Assembly (NCBI GenBank): GCA_032718865.1
Contig: JALUTQ010000035.1
Location: 1,240,001-1,304,000, forward strand
Source: Tilletia caries
Lineage: Eukaryota; Basidiomycota; Exobasidiomycetes; Tilletiales; Tilletiaceae
Direction of reading: 5' to 3'
DNA: 64,000 bases
The notes under the pieces were generated by a model. The model made no database searches. It was not told where the DNA came from and saw only the letters and a list, made by a program, of their open reading frames with translations. The stretch's first letter is position 1; every line of letters starts with the position of its first letter. The position numbers were made by a program, and so were the translations under genes. Positions 553 to 56,700 of this stretch are shown here, one piece after another.

Positions 553-1483
553 ATGACCTCGTGGACGCGCTTCCGCCCGCTCCTCCCCGCCTTCGCCCTC
601 GTGACCGTGTACACCTCAGTCACCTACAACTACGCCGTCCAAGCCCGACTCCGACTCGAAGCCCAACGCCTGCACGTCCTCCGCCTGAACGCCCTCGCCG
701 AGCTCCGCAATGCCGTCTTCGTGAGCTCGCTCGGGCGGCGCGGAAGTAGGCAGGAGGACGACGAGGAGGTCGAAGAGGGCGTTAGGGGGTTGATCAGGTT
801 GGGACTTGACCCGGCGCAGGCGGGCTTTGGGCAGCTGCATCGCGACATTCTTCCTACTGCCACGAGCTCGTCCTCAGCAGAAACGGTCGCTGACGGCCCG
901 CGAACGGGATGGTCGGACGTATTCTTCGGCGGACCCAACTCGTATCGCGCGCAACATAACGGCGGTGCGCGGGACGGGACAGGCAGCACTGGCGAGACGA
1001 TGACGGAAATTTTACGGAGGGCGATGAAGAGCGCCTTCGCCGACTTCCAAGTGTTGGGGAGTGGGAGCGGGAGCGGGAGCGGGGCAGGCAAGCGCGCGCT
1101 GGCGGAGGAGGAGGACGAGGCGCTGGAGAGGTGGATTGAACAAGGTACGTTCCCATCTGCCAATCAAGCTTGTTCCCCCGGCGAGGCTGACCTCCCCTTT
1201 CCTCTTTCCTCCCATTCCCCCAGCCATGGACAACGAAGATCAAGACCTCCCTCAAACAAAACTTCAACCCCCTTCCTCCCCATCAATACCAGACCCTCCA
1301 ACCCCATTCCAACGCGTCCAGTCCGATCTGGCCCCCCCTGCGCCTGCCGAAACCCAACCACAGCAGCAACGAAGGAGAGCAAGAACAGCAGGACGGGACG
1401 AACAGACTTCTTCATCGGACGGGCGGAATCTAGACGGGCAACAACAACGAAGACCTGTACCTCAAAGACCCATCCTCATCTGA
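553..1483 (+). CDS. Hypothetical single-pass membrane protein, two exons
   Basis: Exon 1 is 553-1144 and exon 2 is 1224-1483. The intron 1145-1223 starts GTACGT and ends CAG, and the spliced frame gives 283 aa. The N-terminus has a short basic start and a hydrophobic stretch (residues about 8-28) that looks like a membrane anchor or mitochondrial inner-membrane segment. A predicted helical, Arg/Leu-rich section follows, then an acidic region with a Gly-Ser repeat, and a Pro/Gln-rich tail in exon 2. The unspliced frame stays open further downstream but becomes arginine-rich junk. I recognise no family. It converges with the Snu114 gene, whose stop is about 200 bp away. Confidence 0.5.
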
Positions 1484-1689
1484 AGAAATACCAACCAAAA
1501 AATGCCAAACTTGCGAATTCACATCTGGGAAGGGACACGAGCGGGGTTGTAGGCAGTAGTAGCATTCGGCGCGCGCGCGCGGGCGGGGCGAAAGCGAGCC
1601 GGCTCTGTTTTGCAATTGCGAAGCCACCCTTCGTTTGGAAGTTGAGCGGAAAAGAAAGCCTCGTACATCCGATCGAGCAGGGGATTGCC

Positions 1690-1814
1690 TCAGCTGAGAT
1701 CGAAGCTCGACGCGAGCGCGACGACCATCTCGCTGTCCAAGTACCTGTCGCGCGAGGGAGAGAGAGAGAGAGGAGACGGTGATCAGTCAAGACGAAAAAT
1801 CCCATCAACAAGAG

Positions 1815-1870
<56 letters not shown>

Positions 1871-4800
1871 TCACTGATTGACAGAGATAGCATCACTCAA
1901 CCCCTTCCTCCTCCTCACCTTCAGCACGAAATCCCTCGCAAGCCCCAAGGGAGGCGCCGGCTCCAACGGCCTCAACACAACACCCTTATCCAACGGGTCC
2001 CCAGGGACGACCTGCCAATGGTCGAAAATCTGCACACAGAACGCCTGCCCCTGCGTCAGCGCCCGGAGGTCCGTCTCGAACCCGTTCGCGTCCATCACGG
2101 GCAAATACGCCTTCACGGTGCTCAACGGAGAGCCAGCTTGCGGGATGTCCTGTACCACATGGCCCCGTCGACGCGCTAGGACTTTGTACACCGCGTCCAC
2201 GGCTGTCGGTGGCGTTTGCACCTCTACAAAGTACACGGGCTCCATCAGGCGCGGTGTGGCGAGGAGGAGGGAGGAGTAGCACACCCTCCGACTCGCGGGG
2301 ATGATCTGCCCCCCACCTCTCGAGATCGGGTCCGGGGCAACTTGCGCGTCCAAGATCCGGAACTTCACATTCCGGATCGGCTCGTCGCAAAGTGGGCCCT
2401 CTCGTGTCGCCCATTGGAACCCCTGCCGGATCGACTCTCGGACGTTGTACAGCAGCTTCTTGTCGACTTCCGAGGGTAAGGTGTCGTCCATCAGGATGTT
2501 CGGGCCGTTCTCCTCCGGGCCGAAGGCCCAGATCGAGCGAGAGGCTAGGAGGTCCCAGTCGTATTTCTCTTGGAAGTGCTTGCCGAGTTGCTTGGGTGGC
2601 ATGCGGATGTGTACCCGGCCGGACTCGATGTCTTCGGCGATCCCCTTCTCCAACGGCTCCGCGATGATCGTCAGCTTGTTCCTACACACTCAAAACCAGT
2701 CAGCATTCGTATCGCCACCAAGGGAGGGAGGGAGGGAGAGAGAGAGCACTCACTTCTTATTCGCCGTCTGCGCATAACACTTCACCGCACTCGTCTCCAC
2801 AACCGTCTCCCTAAACTGAACGACAGGATCACTAACCTTAACCTCAATCTCCGCAAACACCTTCCGCAAATCATGCAGCACCGAATCCAACATGACCTCA
2901 CCAGTCCCCAAGACCACATGCTCCCCGCTCTCCTCGACCTTCGTGCTGATGAGCGGGTAGGTCTGGTTGATCTTCCGCAACCCGTCCAGCATCTTGGGCA
3001 GCTCGGCCGGGTTCAGAGGTTCGACGGACACTTTGAGGACCGAGGACGTCATATGGTCCAGCCCCGAACACACATACCGCTCCTCCTCGCCCACATCCGC
3101 GCCCAAGACCGTAGCACTCTTCACCATATTCGCCTCCACGCCGGAGAGGAGCACCAACGAGCCCGCAGGCGCAGCCTCCAACGGCAACGTAAACCGCGTA
3201 TTATGAATCCCCACTCCCAGCACCGTAGCACGCGCCAGATCCTCGCCGTCGTCCTGGGTGTACCCTTCCCCGAGGACGTTGACTTGGTCGCCTACATGCA
3301 CCGTTCCCGAAAGGACGCGTCCGAAGGCCCGCATGCCCGAGGCGTCGCTCGTCGGGAAGAGCTTGGTGACGTGGATCACCAGCGGGCCGTCCGGGTCACA
3401 GTTCGCGAGGGCCGCGAATAAGGGGGACGTCTCCATCGACTGCGGACCCGTCCATATCCTCGACACCTTCGCCAACGCGCCTGCCTTCGGCGATGGGATC
3501 CCATACACCATCACGTCCGCCAAGCCCTCACTATTCCCAAAGAACTGATTCAACACGACCCGGAGCAGCGCGCGGACATCCATCTTGTACACCGCTGGCT
3601 TGAGGTGGATGCCCAGCTTGGACAGGGTGAGCTTCAGGCTGTCCGTGTCCGAGGAGAGCACGTGGGTGTAGAGCTTGTAGAGCGGTTCGAGGATGAATTG
3701 GACGAAGGAGCGCTTGTGTTCCGGGTCCGGGGCGACGCGGGTGAATTTCCGGGAGGAGGGGACGTAGTAGATGTTCCCCCACAGCCGCTTCGCGAACTCG
3801 TCCACATCAAAGCGCGCCGCCTTCTTGTTCCTGCCGCCGACGTTGCTGTTATTCTGGGCGTACAGCTTAGCAAAAGAGCGCAGGGTGAACGACCAACCCA
3901 TCTGCGTGCTCGCAAACGCGACGTTCCCGCGCTCGGGAGCCAGTCTCCGAGCCGGGTTCGAATCGAGGCTCGCAATGAGCGCATTCACCTGCTCAATGGT
4001 ATGTTTAATCTTGAAGTACGCCTCCACGGGCGGTAACCTCAACTCCAAAATCAGCCGATCCACCTTATTCACCACGAGCACGATGGGCAGACCCTGACGG
4101 ATGACGTGGCGGATGATGTGCTCCGTCGAGGCCATGACGCCCTCGACTACGTCGACGACGAGGAGGACGCCGTCGGAGAGGCGGACGGAGGCGGCGACTT
4201 CGTCTTGGAAGTTCGGGTGGCCGGGGGTGTCGAGGAGGTTGAACAGGTAGGATTTGTTGTGGGTCGTGGGCAGGACGAGGGTGAGCGGGGATGTCTTTGT
4301 GGAGATGCCGCGTTGGCGTTCGAGGATGGTCGCGTCGGTGTAGCGGGTCTGTTTTGGGAAAAAGGGGGGGTTAAGAGGGTAAGACGAGGGAAGGCGCGAA
4401 CTGGGAGCGCTGGTGCATGTGATACGCACGTCTTTGTCCATATTGATCTCCATGCGATGACTTTCGAAGAGGAGCATGTCCTGCGGAGTAAAAAAAAAGC
4501 CATGGTTAGCCCATCAGCCATGGAGCGCAGTATTAATAAGTGAAAAGAGGAACTCACCATGAGACTGGTCTTTCCATGATGGAGACCGCCAACGACAGCA
4601 ACATTGCGAACATGATCCGGAAACCCCAAGAGATTAGCCATGAACTCCCTATCAAACCTGGCCTCCGGAACGCCATCCCCGCCCTCGCCCTCGCCCTCCT
4701 GAATAGCAAACTTGCGAACCTTGACAGGCTCAATGATAGGGACGCTAATCGCCTGCGAGTCCTCCTCCTGCACGAGAGCCTCGACGTCCTCGCCGTAGGT

Positions 4801-52772: not shown

Positions 52773-53063
52773 TCAAAGGATGGCACAGATGTCGCTTGAA
52801 CCGCACCTTATGACAACGGAGCCGCTGCGACCGCGACCGGATACGAGATTTTCTGCTTCAAGCAAGGTCCCCTTTTCGTCTCTTGGAATGTCCGCACGGC
52901 CGCGCTTGTAGGTTCCACCGGCCAATTCGAGGACCGCTTCATCGATTTGGAGGTCGGAGCGTGTGCAGAAGGCGGCGTGCTTGAGGACGGAGAAAATGAG
53001 GCCCCGGACCAAGACGTTGTGGACGAAACAGACGCTCGAGAGGCCTTGTTGGGGGTCCTTCAT
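52773..53063 (-). CDS. Unassigned 96-codon open frame upstream of the viroplasmin array
   Basis: The frame opens MKDPQQGLSSVCFVHNVLVR and has a helical, mixed-charge middle (DLQIDEAVLELAGGTYKRGR). A related stretch at 50,396-50,600 has several stops in the same frame, so either this copy is the functional original or neither is coding. No domain recognised. Low confidence. Confidence 0.25.
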   Translation of the reverse strand: MKDPQQGLSSVCFVHNVLVRGLIFSVLKHAAFCTRSDLQIDEAVLELAGGTYKRGRADIPRDEKGTLLEAENLVSGRGRSGSVVIRCGSSDICAIL

Positions 53064-53292
53064 TGGCGGATCGATGGTGCTTGATTCATCTCACTCGTCC
53101 TTATGGTGGTACTCAGACAACGCATGGCTCGTTATATAGCTCTCGCTTCATCCTTCTCGACTGAATGCTGCTCTGCTTCACCTTCACGACCGTGCACGGT
53201 ATGGTCAGGTTCCATTTTCTCCGCTGCATTTCAAGCCTGTACTATGTACAGACTAGTGCAATGGCCGAAGCCAAAGGGGTGCAGCTCCCAAA

Positions 53293-53314
53293 CGCCGATC
53301 ACGTGTGATCGGCG
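53293..53314. ncRNA. Candidate guide-RNA scaffold hairpin downstream of the Fanzor gene
   Basis: A perfect 10-bp stem with a 2-nt centre (CGCCGATCAC-GT-GTGATCGGCG) lies 135 nt past the Fanzor stop codon, within purine-rich DNA. In TnpB and Fanzor elements the guide RNA scaffold is read from the 3' end and 3' flank of the nuclease gene and ends at the element boundary, so this is where a structured segment is expected. That this hairpin is part of such an RNA is inference. Confidence 0.35.
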
Positions 53315-53448
53315 GCATTTTTCCGGAAAGAAAAGGCAAAAAGGGAAAAAGAAAGCGAAACGAGCGCAAGGAAAAGAGCGCAAGAAAAAGAAAAAGAAAA
53401 GAAAATGTAGAGGAAAAAGAAAAAGAAGAAGAGAATATGTCGCTGTCA

Positions 53449-54870
53449 CTAGTTGAGAAAATCATATTTCCAGTGGAGGAAAATGTTTTTCGCGCCATTG
53501 ACGTCTCGATCCGAGACTGTGAGACATCCGGGGCAGCGGTGGATTTCGCTGCCTCCAAGTCTGTGATTGACCGTGCCGCACGTTGAGCAGACCTTGGACG
53601 TCCAGTCCTCCACCACCTCGACGACCTCCATAGCTTCATTTAATCGGCTTCTGAAGCGACCGTGCGCCCACGTCATCATGGCTCTGACTGTCTTTCGCCC
53701 GATCCGCCTTTGACCTCGCCGAGACATCTGGTGCGCGTTGAATGTTGGCAGCAGCACAGTGTCGAAATTTCGCTTGAGGTAGCCACGCAGCTTCCAATGA
53801 AGCTCGTCGACCAGATGCCGGATTCTTGCACGCAGTCGATTTGCGGCGCGGCGCATACGGTAACGCTTTTTTGCTGTAGCTTGGGTTGATCGCGAGATCA
53901 ACTGATCCAAGTGCGTACCGAGGCGGAAAAGACGCTTGTGGTCTCCATCGCCAAATGTTGCCGCCATTCCCCGCAAAGGGTCGTAAATCGTGGCAAATGT
54001 CCGAACGCCGGGGTCAATGGCGCACATTTGTGGCCCACGTGCTGCAGGAACCCGCATCTTCTCTTCCCCCATGTCCTTCTGCCAAAGCAGGAACCATGAT
54101 CCGTTCTCCTGCTTGATGCATGCCCCATCATGCTCCAGCGATGGAACGTCGATCCCCGTCTGAATCTTGGTCTGGTGCTGACCTGGACCCAGACCGAAAT
54201 TTGGGATCTTGAGGCATCCTCCGTCCCAGTCACGTTTCCGAATTCGGAAGGAGGAGAAGAGCGCCCGCTTTTTCCGGAACTTCAGCTCGAAGTTCGGAAT
54301 TTTGCCGTCCCGAACGTCCGCCAAGCCATTCTGAAGCGCTGTATGGGCTTCGAGGCACGCCTGCTCCCTGATGCTGTATGGCACCGGAGTCACCCATGAC
54401 AGGTTCATGAGGGGAAGGCCATCCTCTGTGACTGAATGTTCCCGGACGTTGTTTAAAGAGGCGTTTGGGTGAGCCTTGAGGTACGCCACCGCCCGGTTGT
54501 ACGTCCACCTGAATATTCCAGCCGTTTTTCGAAGTGCCTCCTTTTGCTGTGTATTCGGCCGAAGCCGGGTGCGATAGGTCTTCAATCGCCAATTGTTTTG
54601 GCGCTCTCCAGGCCTGGTCCGACGAGACGGCGGTGGTGGAGGCACAGCGTCGAGGCGCTGCCGGAGTGTAGCGCTCAGCTCCGTGAGCATTCCACCGATA
54701 TCTTCATCCGGCACGACTGGATGCGGCAGGAAGGCGTATTTTGGTAGAAACCAAGTATTGATGGGCGCATTATGCCACTCCGCCGCCTGTTGTGTGCCTT
54801 CTACGCCAGGCCACAGCACTGATTCTGGTGCTACTGACCCAATCCAGGGCGCTGGCGGAGGGTCGGCCAT
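53449..54870 (-). CDS. Fanzor/TnpB-like (OrfB family) RNA-guided nuclease homologue
   Basis: A single intact exon of 473 aa. After a Pro-rich N-terminus (about 90 residues) comes the OrfB N-terminal region (YRTRLRPNTQQKEALRKTAG, RWTYNRAVAYL). Then come a positively charged wedge region (FELKFRKKRALFSSFRIRKR) and the RuvC-like nuclease. RuvC-I is MCAIDPGVRTFATIY with Asp286. The usual RuvC-II glutamate site reads TVLLPTFNAHQM and has no Glu. EVVEVVEDWTSKVCSTCG supplies an alternative acidic residue (about Glu421), as described for eukaryotic Fanzors. A CxxC...CxxC zinc ribbon uses Cys428, 431, 446 and 449, and RuvC-III is SDRDVNGAKNIFL with Asp456. Known relatives cut DNA at sites chosen by an element-derived RNA. 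No intron is visible, unlike most neighbours, and flanking DNA is A/G-rich, consistent with a mobile origin. Confidence 0.9.
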   Translation of the reverse strand: MADPPPAPWIGSVAPESVLWPGVEGTQQAAEWHNAPINTWFLPKYAFLPHPVVPDEDIGGMLTELSATLRQRLDAVPPPPPSRRTRPGERQNNWRLKTYRTRLRPNTQQKEALRKTAGIFRWTYNRAVAYLKAHPNASLNNVREHSVTEDGLPLMNLSWVTPVPYSIREQACLEAHTALQNGLADVRDGKIPNFELKFRKKRALFSSFRIRKRDWDGGCLKIPNFGLGPGQHQTKIQTGIDVPSLEHDGACIKQENGSWFLLWQKDMGEEKMRVPAARGPQMCAIDPGVRTFATIYDPLRGMAATFGDGDHKRLFRLGTHLDQLISRSTQATAKKRYRMRRAANRLRARIRHLVDELHWKLRGYLKRNFDTVLLPTFNAHQMSRRGQRRIGRKTVRAMMTWAHGRFRSRLNEAMEVVEVVEDWTSKVCSTCGTVNHRLGGSEIHRCPGCLTVSDRDVNGAKNIFLHWKYDFLN

Positions 54871-55509
54871 GGTGATCTGAATATAATAGATAAGGGAAAA
54901 AATAGGAGCGGTGCTGGTCAGTCTCTTGATCTAACGATGATGACGCAAAAAAAAAGAAAAAAGAACAATGAAAAGAAAAGAAAAGAAAAGAAAAGAAAAA
55001 AGGAGCGGTGCTGGTCACGTGGTTGGACTCTGCTAGTCACGTGGTCCGTCTCTTAATCTAATAATGATAAGGAGAAAAAAAGATAAAAAAAGATAAAAGA
55101 AACGAAAAAAACGAAAAAAAAATGGCAACGAACAAAAACTACAGAACGAAAAACGGCAGAAAGCTATACACAAAAAAATCGAAAAACGAATAAAAAAACG
55201 AAAAACATGAAAAACACTCACCCTGAAATTTCACCGAGGGACGGATGTTAACGCCGAAGAGTTTGTTCGACAGACAGTCACGTGGCAAAAACAAACTATG
55301 AGTCGACAAAAGGGCGAAGAGCCGAAGGGGGGGGGAAGAGAACCGTTACTTCACTCTCTCTCTCACTCACTCGCCCGCGCTCACCTCTTCTCCCGCCGCC
55401 CCAGTCCATCGCATTATTCATCCAATCACGCTCCCCATCACCTCCTGCTCGACACTCAGCACACAGCACTCAACAGCATACACACACACACACACACACA
55501 GCAGCGACA
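54871..55509. other. A-rich flank with a repeated motif, upstream of the Fanzor gene
   Basis: About 640 bp. Positions 54,904-54,944 and 54,999-55,070 share GGAGCGGTGCTGGTCA and GTCTCTTGATCTAACGATGA/GTCTCTTAATCTAATAATGA. Between and after them are GAAAA pentamer runs (54,969-54,998) and long A-rich DNA to about 55,220. Three TCACGTGG words occur (55,014, 55,037, 55,279). The right end of the presumed mobile unit must lie here, but I found no convincing inverted terminal repeat. A CA repeat (55,480-55,500) precedes the PUP1 start. Confidence 0.55.
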
Positions 55510-56700
55510 ATGGCAGCAGCATCAACAGCGCCCGCACCGCACAGCGCAGGCTTCGACTTCACCAACCACGACCGCAACGCCCTCCTCACGGGCAAAGGGT
55601 TCCCCGTCCCCAAGGCCACCTCCACGGGTACGACCATCGTAGGCACCATCTTCAACGACGGCGTCGTCCTCGGAGCCGACACACCGTGCGACCGAGGGTC
55701 CCAATGTCGCTGACAAGAACTGCGAGAAGGTGAGATCATTTCTCCCCCTTTCTCTCTGTTACATGCCCACGTTTTCGAGCTGACTGGGGAGAAAATCGTG
55801 TTATTTTAGATCCACTACATCGCGCCTCACATCTACTGCTGCGGAGCAGGAACTGCCGCCGACACCGAATTCATGACACAGCTCACCTCTTCCAATGTCC
55901 AGCTGCACGAGCTCCACACCGGCCGGAAATCACGCGTCGTTACAGCGATGACCATGTTCAAGCAGCGTCTTTTCCAGTGAGTGCTTTCCCTTTCCACCCC
56001 GCTCTCTCTCTGTGTACCTGGTATGGTAGGGGAAGCTGAGCACGATCTGGCATCTTTGTTATCCTTCAGACACTCGGGCCACATCGGCGCTGCGCTCGTC
56101 TTGGGCGGTTACGACGTTACCGGACCGCAGCTGTTCACCATCGCCCCGCACGGCTCGACGGACAAGTTGCCTTATGTGACAATGGGCAGTGGTAGTCTGG
56201 CCGCCATGGCCGTCTTCGAGAGCGGGTGGAAGAAGGACATGACTGTGAGTTTGATTTCTGACACCCACCTTTATGGATCGAAATTCCCCCAGCTGAATAG
56301 TCTTTCGATGTTCGAATGAATCAGCGCGACGAAGCCATCGCTCTCGTCACAGCTGCCATCGAGTCCGGAATTTACAACGACCTCGGCTCCGGTTCCAATG
56401 TGGACGTCTGCATCATCGAGAAGCAGGGAACGGAGATGCTCAGGAACTATCGGGTGCTCGCTCGGGAGGCCAAGGAACAGCGGTATGGATTCCGGAGGGG
56501 CACCACCGCGTATACCAAGGAGGAGATCTTTAGTATGATCCAGAAGCAGGGTGCGTTTTTCCTTCACTTTCATTCCTTGTGCTTGTCGAGGTTCTTCTGC
56601 TGTGGTTGGCTGACCTTATTTTCCATCTGCACCTGCAGATGTGTTCGGACTTTATGTTTTCCATCCCCGCTCCCTCTTCCCCTTTCTTCCCTTCACGTCC
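55510..56700 (+). CDS. PUP1: Proteasome subunit beta-2 (PUP1/PSMB7-like), with a frameshift in exon 1
   Basis: The trypsin-like catalytic subunit of the 20S proteasome. Exons are 55510-55729, 55810-55976, 56070-56244 and 56325-56550, then a poorly defined end. The propeptide leads to [21 protein letters not shown] with the N-terminal catalytic Thr. Then come [85 protein letters not shown] and [12 protein letters not shown]. In exon 1 an extra C (within 55684-55685) shifts the frame between GADT and the expected RATEG, giving an early stop. The rest is intact. The final exon after MIQKQ cannot be matched to the family. It is either a sequencing error, a pseudogene with an intact copy elsewhere, or recoding. 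Confidence 0.8.

Follow-up and report, generated by a model that had tools for sequence, protein, structure and literature searches.

The DNA analysed here is a window of 64,000 nucleotides from the wheat-bunt fungus Tilletia caries (assembly GCA_032718865.1, contig JALUTQ010000035.1, positions 1,240,001 to 1,304,000; all coordinates below are positions in the window). On its minus strand, at 53449..54870, lies an open reading frame (ORF) that, judged by its sequence, is a genuine and unbroken Fanzor, a eukaryotic relative of the ancestor of CRISPR Cas12, and that forms part of a larger repeated element, the subject of this work. The ORF call runs from an ATG start to a stop over 473 codons with zero internal stops, exactly the intact frame described in an earlier sequence-only reading, which had not given the strand. 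A profile search, as suggested there, gives 103.5 bits against NCBIfam guided_TnpB (cut-off 100), and two Pfam matches exceed their cut-offs (Cas12f1-like_TNB, 3.2e-12; HTH_OrfB_IS605, 3.3e-10), with OrfB_IS605 below its own (19.3 vs 30.5 bits); the match to the TnpB family is thus far from chance. Homologue figures in this text refer to the 120 listed of 512. The nearest of these are Tilletia proteins (T. laevis, 91% identity over 88% of the query; T. caries, 96% over 63%; T. indica, 63% over the whole), as expected from the fungal host that had been proposed, and in a tree of the listed homologues ten leaves including the Tilletia proteins form one clade (support 0.972). Fanzors in fungi are already in print, according to passages of PMC10432273, and the protein by itself is a further member of an established family. 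Our literature search, with supplements and subscription papers outside it, found no paper joining Fanzor or TnpB with Tilletia.

By alignment, the set of RuvC residues is complete: D286 (codon at 54013-54015), E421 (53608-53610) and D456 (53503-53505), all on the minus strand, accompanied by P287, G288, R455 and the cysteines C428, C431, C446 and C449. These include every TnpB-type residue that the sequence-only reading had named (D286, four zinc cysteines and D456). A DPG at RuvC-I together with a relocated RuvC-II glutamate is the Fanzor fingerprint (PMC10711439), and the presence of both parts bears out the identification of the protein as a Fanzor. DP stands at 286-287 in 119 of 120 homologues, the remaining one being without the region, and E421 in 117, the other three being gapped there; the two fingerprints occur together in 117, the other three again lacking the region. 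In 116-118 homologues the zinc cysteines and R455-D456 are conserved, with one phenylalanine at C428. The canonical RuvC-II stretch (residues 373-377) reads LLPTF and mostly LLPxF in the homologues, and the glutamate of TnpB aligns on or beside P375/T376. The earlier claim that this stretch lacks glutamate therefore holds, and E421 is invariant where the region is present. Glutamate is found at 376 in 12 homologues and at 378 in 69; on this alignment a glutamate near the canonical site is not rare, and E421 alone appears invariant. The residues also fit the Fanzor motif given in passages of PMC3627910, D-X(125,275)-[TS][TS]-X-X-C4 zinc finger-X(5,50)-RD, as D286, 137 residues, T424 S425 K V, C428/C431/C446/C449, 5 residues, and R455 D456.

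An AlphaFold model of the protein (mean predicted local distance difference test score 84.9, predicted template modelling score 0.69) has as its best fold match the Fanzor2 of mimivirus, nearly end to end and with the N-terminal part included, whereas the match to a TnpB fold begins only at residue 93. The structural check envisaged in the sequence-only reading, carried out at the level of the overall fold, thus came out in its favour. The best PDB profile match is also mimivirus L79 (Fanzor2), at 3.3e-59, and by its best profile and fold matches, in comparisons that included no named Fanzor1 reference, the protein is best called Fanzor2-like. Fanzor2 has been described in IS607-type elements (passages of PMC3627910), whereas the search of this genome yielded no recombinase of the IS607 type: the serine recombinase domain Resolvase PF00239 has 0 matches in a search that was positive in 10 of 14 control genomes. 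The element is therefore not filed as a canonical IS607 Fanzor2. That the protein is instead a Fanzor1, carried by a Helitron2 element like CRe-1 to CRe-3, we consider unlikely. The nearest published behaviour is indeed that of one-ended Fanzor1 Helitrons (PMC3627910), but L79 tops the PDB profile matches, and a loop-terminus pairing of the RNA, possible in both Tilletia families described below, is predicted for Fanzor2 and not for Fanzor1 RNAs (PMC10711439). No Fanzor1-named entry occurs among the 33 PDB matches listed (E up to 1) or the 50 listed by fold, which excludes nothing.

A search of the genome (38.1 Mb, 40 contigs) with the Fanzor protein gave 53 matches. Five of them, counting the window copy and another that spans residues 1-471, are full-length and open; the remainder are broken, partial or from more distant families. 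Twenty loci were fetched (L009-L028, of which L009 is the window copy), and the element has about 20 copies. E421 and D456 are kept in all 18 fetched copies that cover the site; the other two, L019 and L026, stop short of it, and L019 has a serine at 287. The right end of the window element lies at 53222. In Fanzor orientation the copies end ...AGTACAGGCTTGAAATGCAGCG, and among 14 copies compared the flanks diverge right after this common end, with few exceptions: L025 and L028 have the same flank, L009, L010 and L017 have 1-4 further bases in common, L023 ends in A, and L027 is one base short. L016 and L022 also carry the last bases of the end, preceded by other DNA. The terminal 20-mer is exact at 18 genome places and has three mismatches at one further place; its reversed control reaches two places, at three mismatches. 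In windows of 60 bases, identity among copies is 92.9-98.5% in the ORF, 93.6-96.6% in the first part of the 3' region (with 13-16% gapped pairs) and 99.1-99.6% in the last ~90 bp, which are the most conserved part of the element. The DNA next to the right end of the window copy (52998-53217) is itself a repeat, found at 95.5% identity on contig C40 and 88% on C35; in each of these three places it ends close to the same point.

The same arrangement recurs in a second Fanzor family, with a protein 39% identical and like P0007 (L038-L040 and L043-L045, contig C34 ~1247-1272 kb). Three copies on C34 are 98.9-99.3% identical and have a common end ...TTTCTAATGTAGCCG, unrelated right flanks and differing left borders, so that this family behaves much like the first, with an exact right end and a varying left. 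Copy B extends into a gene with an ATP synthase g domain, copy A has this gene only up to part of exon 1, and copy C is without the first 261 bp common to A and B; B would be nearest to the donor. The termini of the two families (AATGCAGC-G and AATGTAGCCG) are alike by eye, and BLAST of the family-1 right end against family 2 gave no significant match. A further family is represented by L041 and L042 (contig C28), two older Fanzor copies that contain stops and share 84.6% identity.

The conserved terminus, 53222..53314 on the minus strand, is a candidate scaffold for a guide RNA (omega-RNA), on the grounds of its conservation, its fold and the exact 20-mer. Its 92 nt at 53223-53314 have a folding energy of -38.0 kcal/mol (z -3.77), which 1 of 200 shuffles matched, and the 3' end of the second family folds at z -2.16. 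The predicted layout is a strong hairpin, a UUCG stem and a hairpin at the terminus, after which the last segment, UGCAGC, could pair with a GCUGCA lying upstream. In the second family GUAGC would pair with GCUAC, with a G-C to A-U change, and a pseudoknot of this kind has been predicted in Fanzor2 RNAs (PMC10711439). An Rfam search gave no family at cut-off and one match far below it. The guide RNA would derive from the last ~90 bp of the element together with the adjoining host flank, and by analogy with known TnpB and Fanzor loci the guide itself would be read from 53202..53221 (minus strand), a flank that varies between copies. The 3' end is conserved and foldable; the Tilletia Fanzor would be guided by its RNA and may be active in cleaving DNA. 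Between scaffold and ORF lies a 3' non-coding tract (53315..53448, minus), purine-rich on the plus strand and of varying length among copies. Purine content is 79% at 53301-53400 and 77-78% at 54901-55000 and 55101-55200; the A/G-rich flanks noticed in the sequence-only reading are thus real on both sides of the ORF, and lie inside the repeated element rather than marking its boundary.

The left side of the element varies between copies. Upstream of the ORF follow a 5' non-coding part, partly A-rich on the plus strand and common to several other copies (54871..55350, minus), and a left segment (55351..55444, minus) common to 12 genome places (a thirteenth row is the proteasome part only), against 20 right-end rows, of which two fall in a single copy. 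The window copy lacks ~210 bp, present in L017, between the left segment and 55350. Beyond it lies the left arm (55445..56647, plus), a fragment of a proteasome beta-subunit gene head-to-head with the Fanzor, with a frameshift in the first exon and truncated at the far end. L009 and L017 have this arm in common; another gene start is found in L011, L012, L013 and L030, and yet another in L010, L024, L027 and L032. L014, L021, L022 and L026 have a common arm that joins slightly inside the left segment and are not simply truncated, L023 and L031 have one more stretch in common, and L020 alone begins inside the 5' region. Several of the arms consist of 5' pieces of host genes. Outer borders are unequal within arm groups; for instance, L010 ends before L024, and L024 before L027 and L032. 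The copy in L010 holds a nested transposase-like open frame of 562 residues (780-3350 in Fanzor orientation), which we take to be hAT-like, and a single copy seems to have been split into L032 and L018, ~10 kb apart, L018 being probably the right part.

Several further observations concern these arms. The proteasome beta gene stands at no fewer than three places: truncated and frameshifted in the window, with a deletion in L017, and in what looks a more complete form in L029, which carries it without a Fanzor. On contig C5 at ~897.8-907.1 kb (L031 at the left end), family-1 right-end and left segments lie 9.3 kb apart with no Fanzor protein match between them in the genome search, a possible guide-RNA-only copy; an assignment of the L031 pieces to prohibitin was dropped, the Band_7 match being sub-threshold only. 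Across the genome several gene-5' fragments are repeated and Helitron Rep domains are abundant, and gene capture may be common.

The ratio of nonsynonymous to synonymous substitution rates is 0.29-0.54 in all ten pairs of the five open copies, and the corresponding ratio of proportions (pN/pS) is 0.41 across all copy pairs, the pairs in neither case being independent. These codon changes point to purifying selection, as a property of the family and not of the window copy. It is quite conceivable, if somewhat short of probable, that the window copy is a fossil, open because it is young and no longer expressed or mobile, an explanation compatible with all others considered here. The missing ~210 bp of its 5' region and the small number of full-length open copies, five among about 20, speak for this; its open frame, full catalytic set and intact right end speak against it, and the selection seen among copies, set against the fossil reading, again belongs to the family.

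Taking as observed the family, the active-site residues, the copy number, the exact right end, the variable left arms and the foldable 3' end, we infer the direction of copying and the help of Helitrons. The element would move by a one-ended transposition resembling rolling-circle copying, in which Helitron proteins would probably act in trans, and copying would be anchored at the right end and run leftwards past the element into the donor flank until it stops. We give about an even chance to the whole of this account, i.e. a complete Fanzor2-like RuvC set, a guide RNA from the 3' end and flank, and one-ended, right-end-anchored spread with Helitron help. No transposase was found in the Fanzor element and no Rep/helicase ORF was noticed in the window element; the Helitron_like_N domain has 60 matches in the genome, several in long open frames, and none at the places of the Fanzor copies. 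Terminal inverted repeats were not recognised, the three inverted pairs in 53200-55470 including none that links both ends. Nor were target duplications: no exact repeat of at least 8 bp lies at the recognised left border of 14 family-1 copies, and none of at least 6 bp at the border of three second-family copies. Three repeats of at least 8 bp lie off the borders, in the ORF (L010), inside a shared arm (L014) and beyond the shared stretch (L023); the 9-bp repeat in L014 was rejected as a target duplication, lying as it does inside the left arm common to L014, L022 and L026.

A number of results weigh against one-ended spread with Helitron help. Canonical Helitron ends (5'-TC, CTRR-3') were not seen, the right end being GCAGCG with varied neighbours; the hairpin followed by 11-12 nt at the 3' end of both families is weak (z -1.3 and -1.5); and no other repeat of the genome has the Fanzor right end. 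Neither a common motif nor a target-adjacent motif was found next to the ends, right or left. Outside the window copy the two flanks match different genome places and, when joined, matched no place across the junction, so that the search for an empty site gave none. Shuffles reach the loop-terminus pairing 34 and 170 times per 2000 in the two families, which is only modestly beyond chance and makes the pairing no more than suggestive. Four copies (L015, L016, L019, L025) start within 38 bp of one another near the ORF start, beside A-rich DNA, and not at random points; their flanks are unlike, and this may be a second preferred left border. L028 repeats part of L025 together with its flank. Furthermore, arms and ORFs have been reshuffled, because in the ORF tree most copies that have an arm in common are not sisters: the only ones to group are L011/L013 and L010/L024, whereas L009/L017 and L014/L021/L022 do not, and L012 and L027 stand apart from their arm groups. 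Recombination or gene conversion could therefore explain more than the favoured account allows.

Indeed, we see a real, though clearly less than even, chance that the left arms arose by segmental duplication, ectopic recombination, gene conversion and nested insertions, and that the element moves by a system whose left end we have not recognised. Besides the disagreement of arm groups and ORF tree, this would account for the >2 kb of proteasome region common to L017 and the Fanzor-less L029, the ~2.4 kb of arm common to L022 and L026, the duplication of part of L025 with its flank as L028, the copies split by other repeats (e.g. L010, and L032/L018 with its ~10 kb), and the repeat beside the window copy's right end. 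It fits poorly with the right flanks, which part directly after the same end in 14 copies save the exceptions given above (L025/L028; 1-4 bases in L009, L010 and L017), with a second family equally asymmetric at 98.9-99.3% identity, and with the absence of an inverted repeat linking both ends of the window element. A constant 3' end with variable 5' ends is also the pattern of long interspersed nuclear elements (LINEs), and copies might have been made by target-primed reverse transcription of the Fanzor transcript, in a genome where RVT_1 is abundant (150 scored of 378 candidates, long terminal repeat and LINE types not separated). This we regard as very improbable: the right end has no A-tail or simple-repeat tail, no target duplication stands at the left border (the L014 repeat lying inside a shared arm), no other repeat has the same right end, and the proteasome arm is antisense and retains intron sequence. 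Exact removal of an intron in L010 and L024 was tested and rejected, the missing stretch of ~207 bp being without intron edges.

What is new here lies in the element. This Fanzor2-like family has many copies, whose right end is exact, conserved and foldable and whose left arms vary and carry pieces of genes. According to passages of PMC10432273, inverted repeats and a clear transposase seemed to be missing from the loci of GtFz1, NlovFz2 and MmeFz2. A common exact end with varying other ends that hold pieces of host genes may show how such elements spread. Because one small genome holds ~20 copies, five of them with open frames, and their right end is exact, guide, end and mobility can be studied together. 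If the one-ended account is true, a behaviour reported for Fanzor1 Helitrons would also hold for Fanzor2-like proteins and would be linked to the capture of host genes. A wider proposition, which we put forward tentatively and hold to be rather doubtful, is that the Fanzor2-like elements of Tilletia spread by one-ended copying anchored at the right end, the same ~90 bp serving as guide scaffold and transposition origin, so that each copy would be guided against its own new site and read-through would move host 5' ends and promoters.

Among known systems, the closest solved structure, with a fold match near whole length, is the mimivirus Fanzor2 (Acanthamoeba polyphaga mimivirus TnpB-like L79, PDB 9b0l), which like the Tilletia protein has its alternative glutamate seven residues ahead of the first zinc cysteine, at only 18% identity. 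In an alga and in molluscs, Fanzor2* is carried by transposons other than IS607 (passages of PMC10711439), likewise Fanzor2-like proteins outside IS607, although those transposons have terminal inverted repeats and target duplications, neither of which was recognised in Tilletia. In behaviour the nearest are the Fanzor1 elements of PMC3627910. The Helitron2 elements CRe-1, CRe-2 and CRe-3 of Chlamydomonas have multi-exon genes, target duplications of 7-19 bp in many copies and ends in common with verified Helitrons, none of which is shown in Tilletia, but they likewise combine a constant 3' end with variable 5' ends and captured 5' sequence, a pattern termed one-ended transposition. The Fanzor1 family MCi-2 of Mucor differs in its 11-12 bp target duplications with an ATAATT pattern; it is fungal, however, and its near-identical 3' part, joined to several 5' regions in 2-3 copies each, is like the arms of the Tilletia element.
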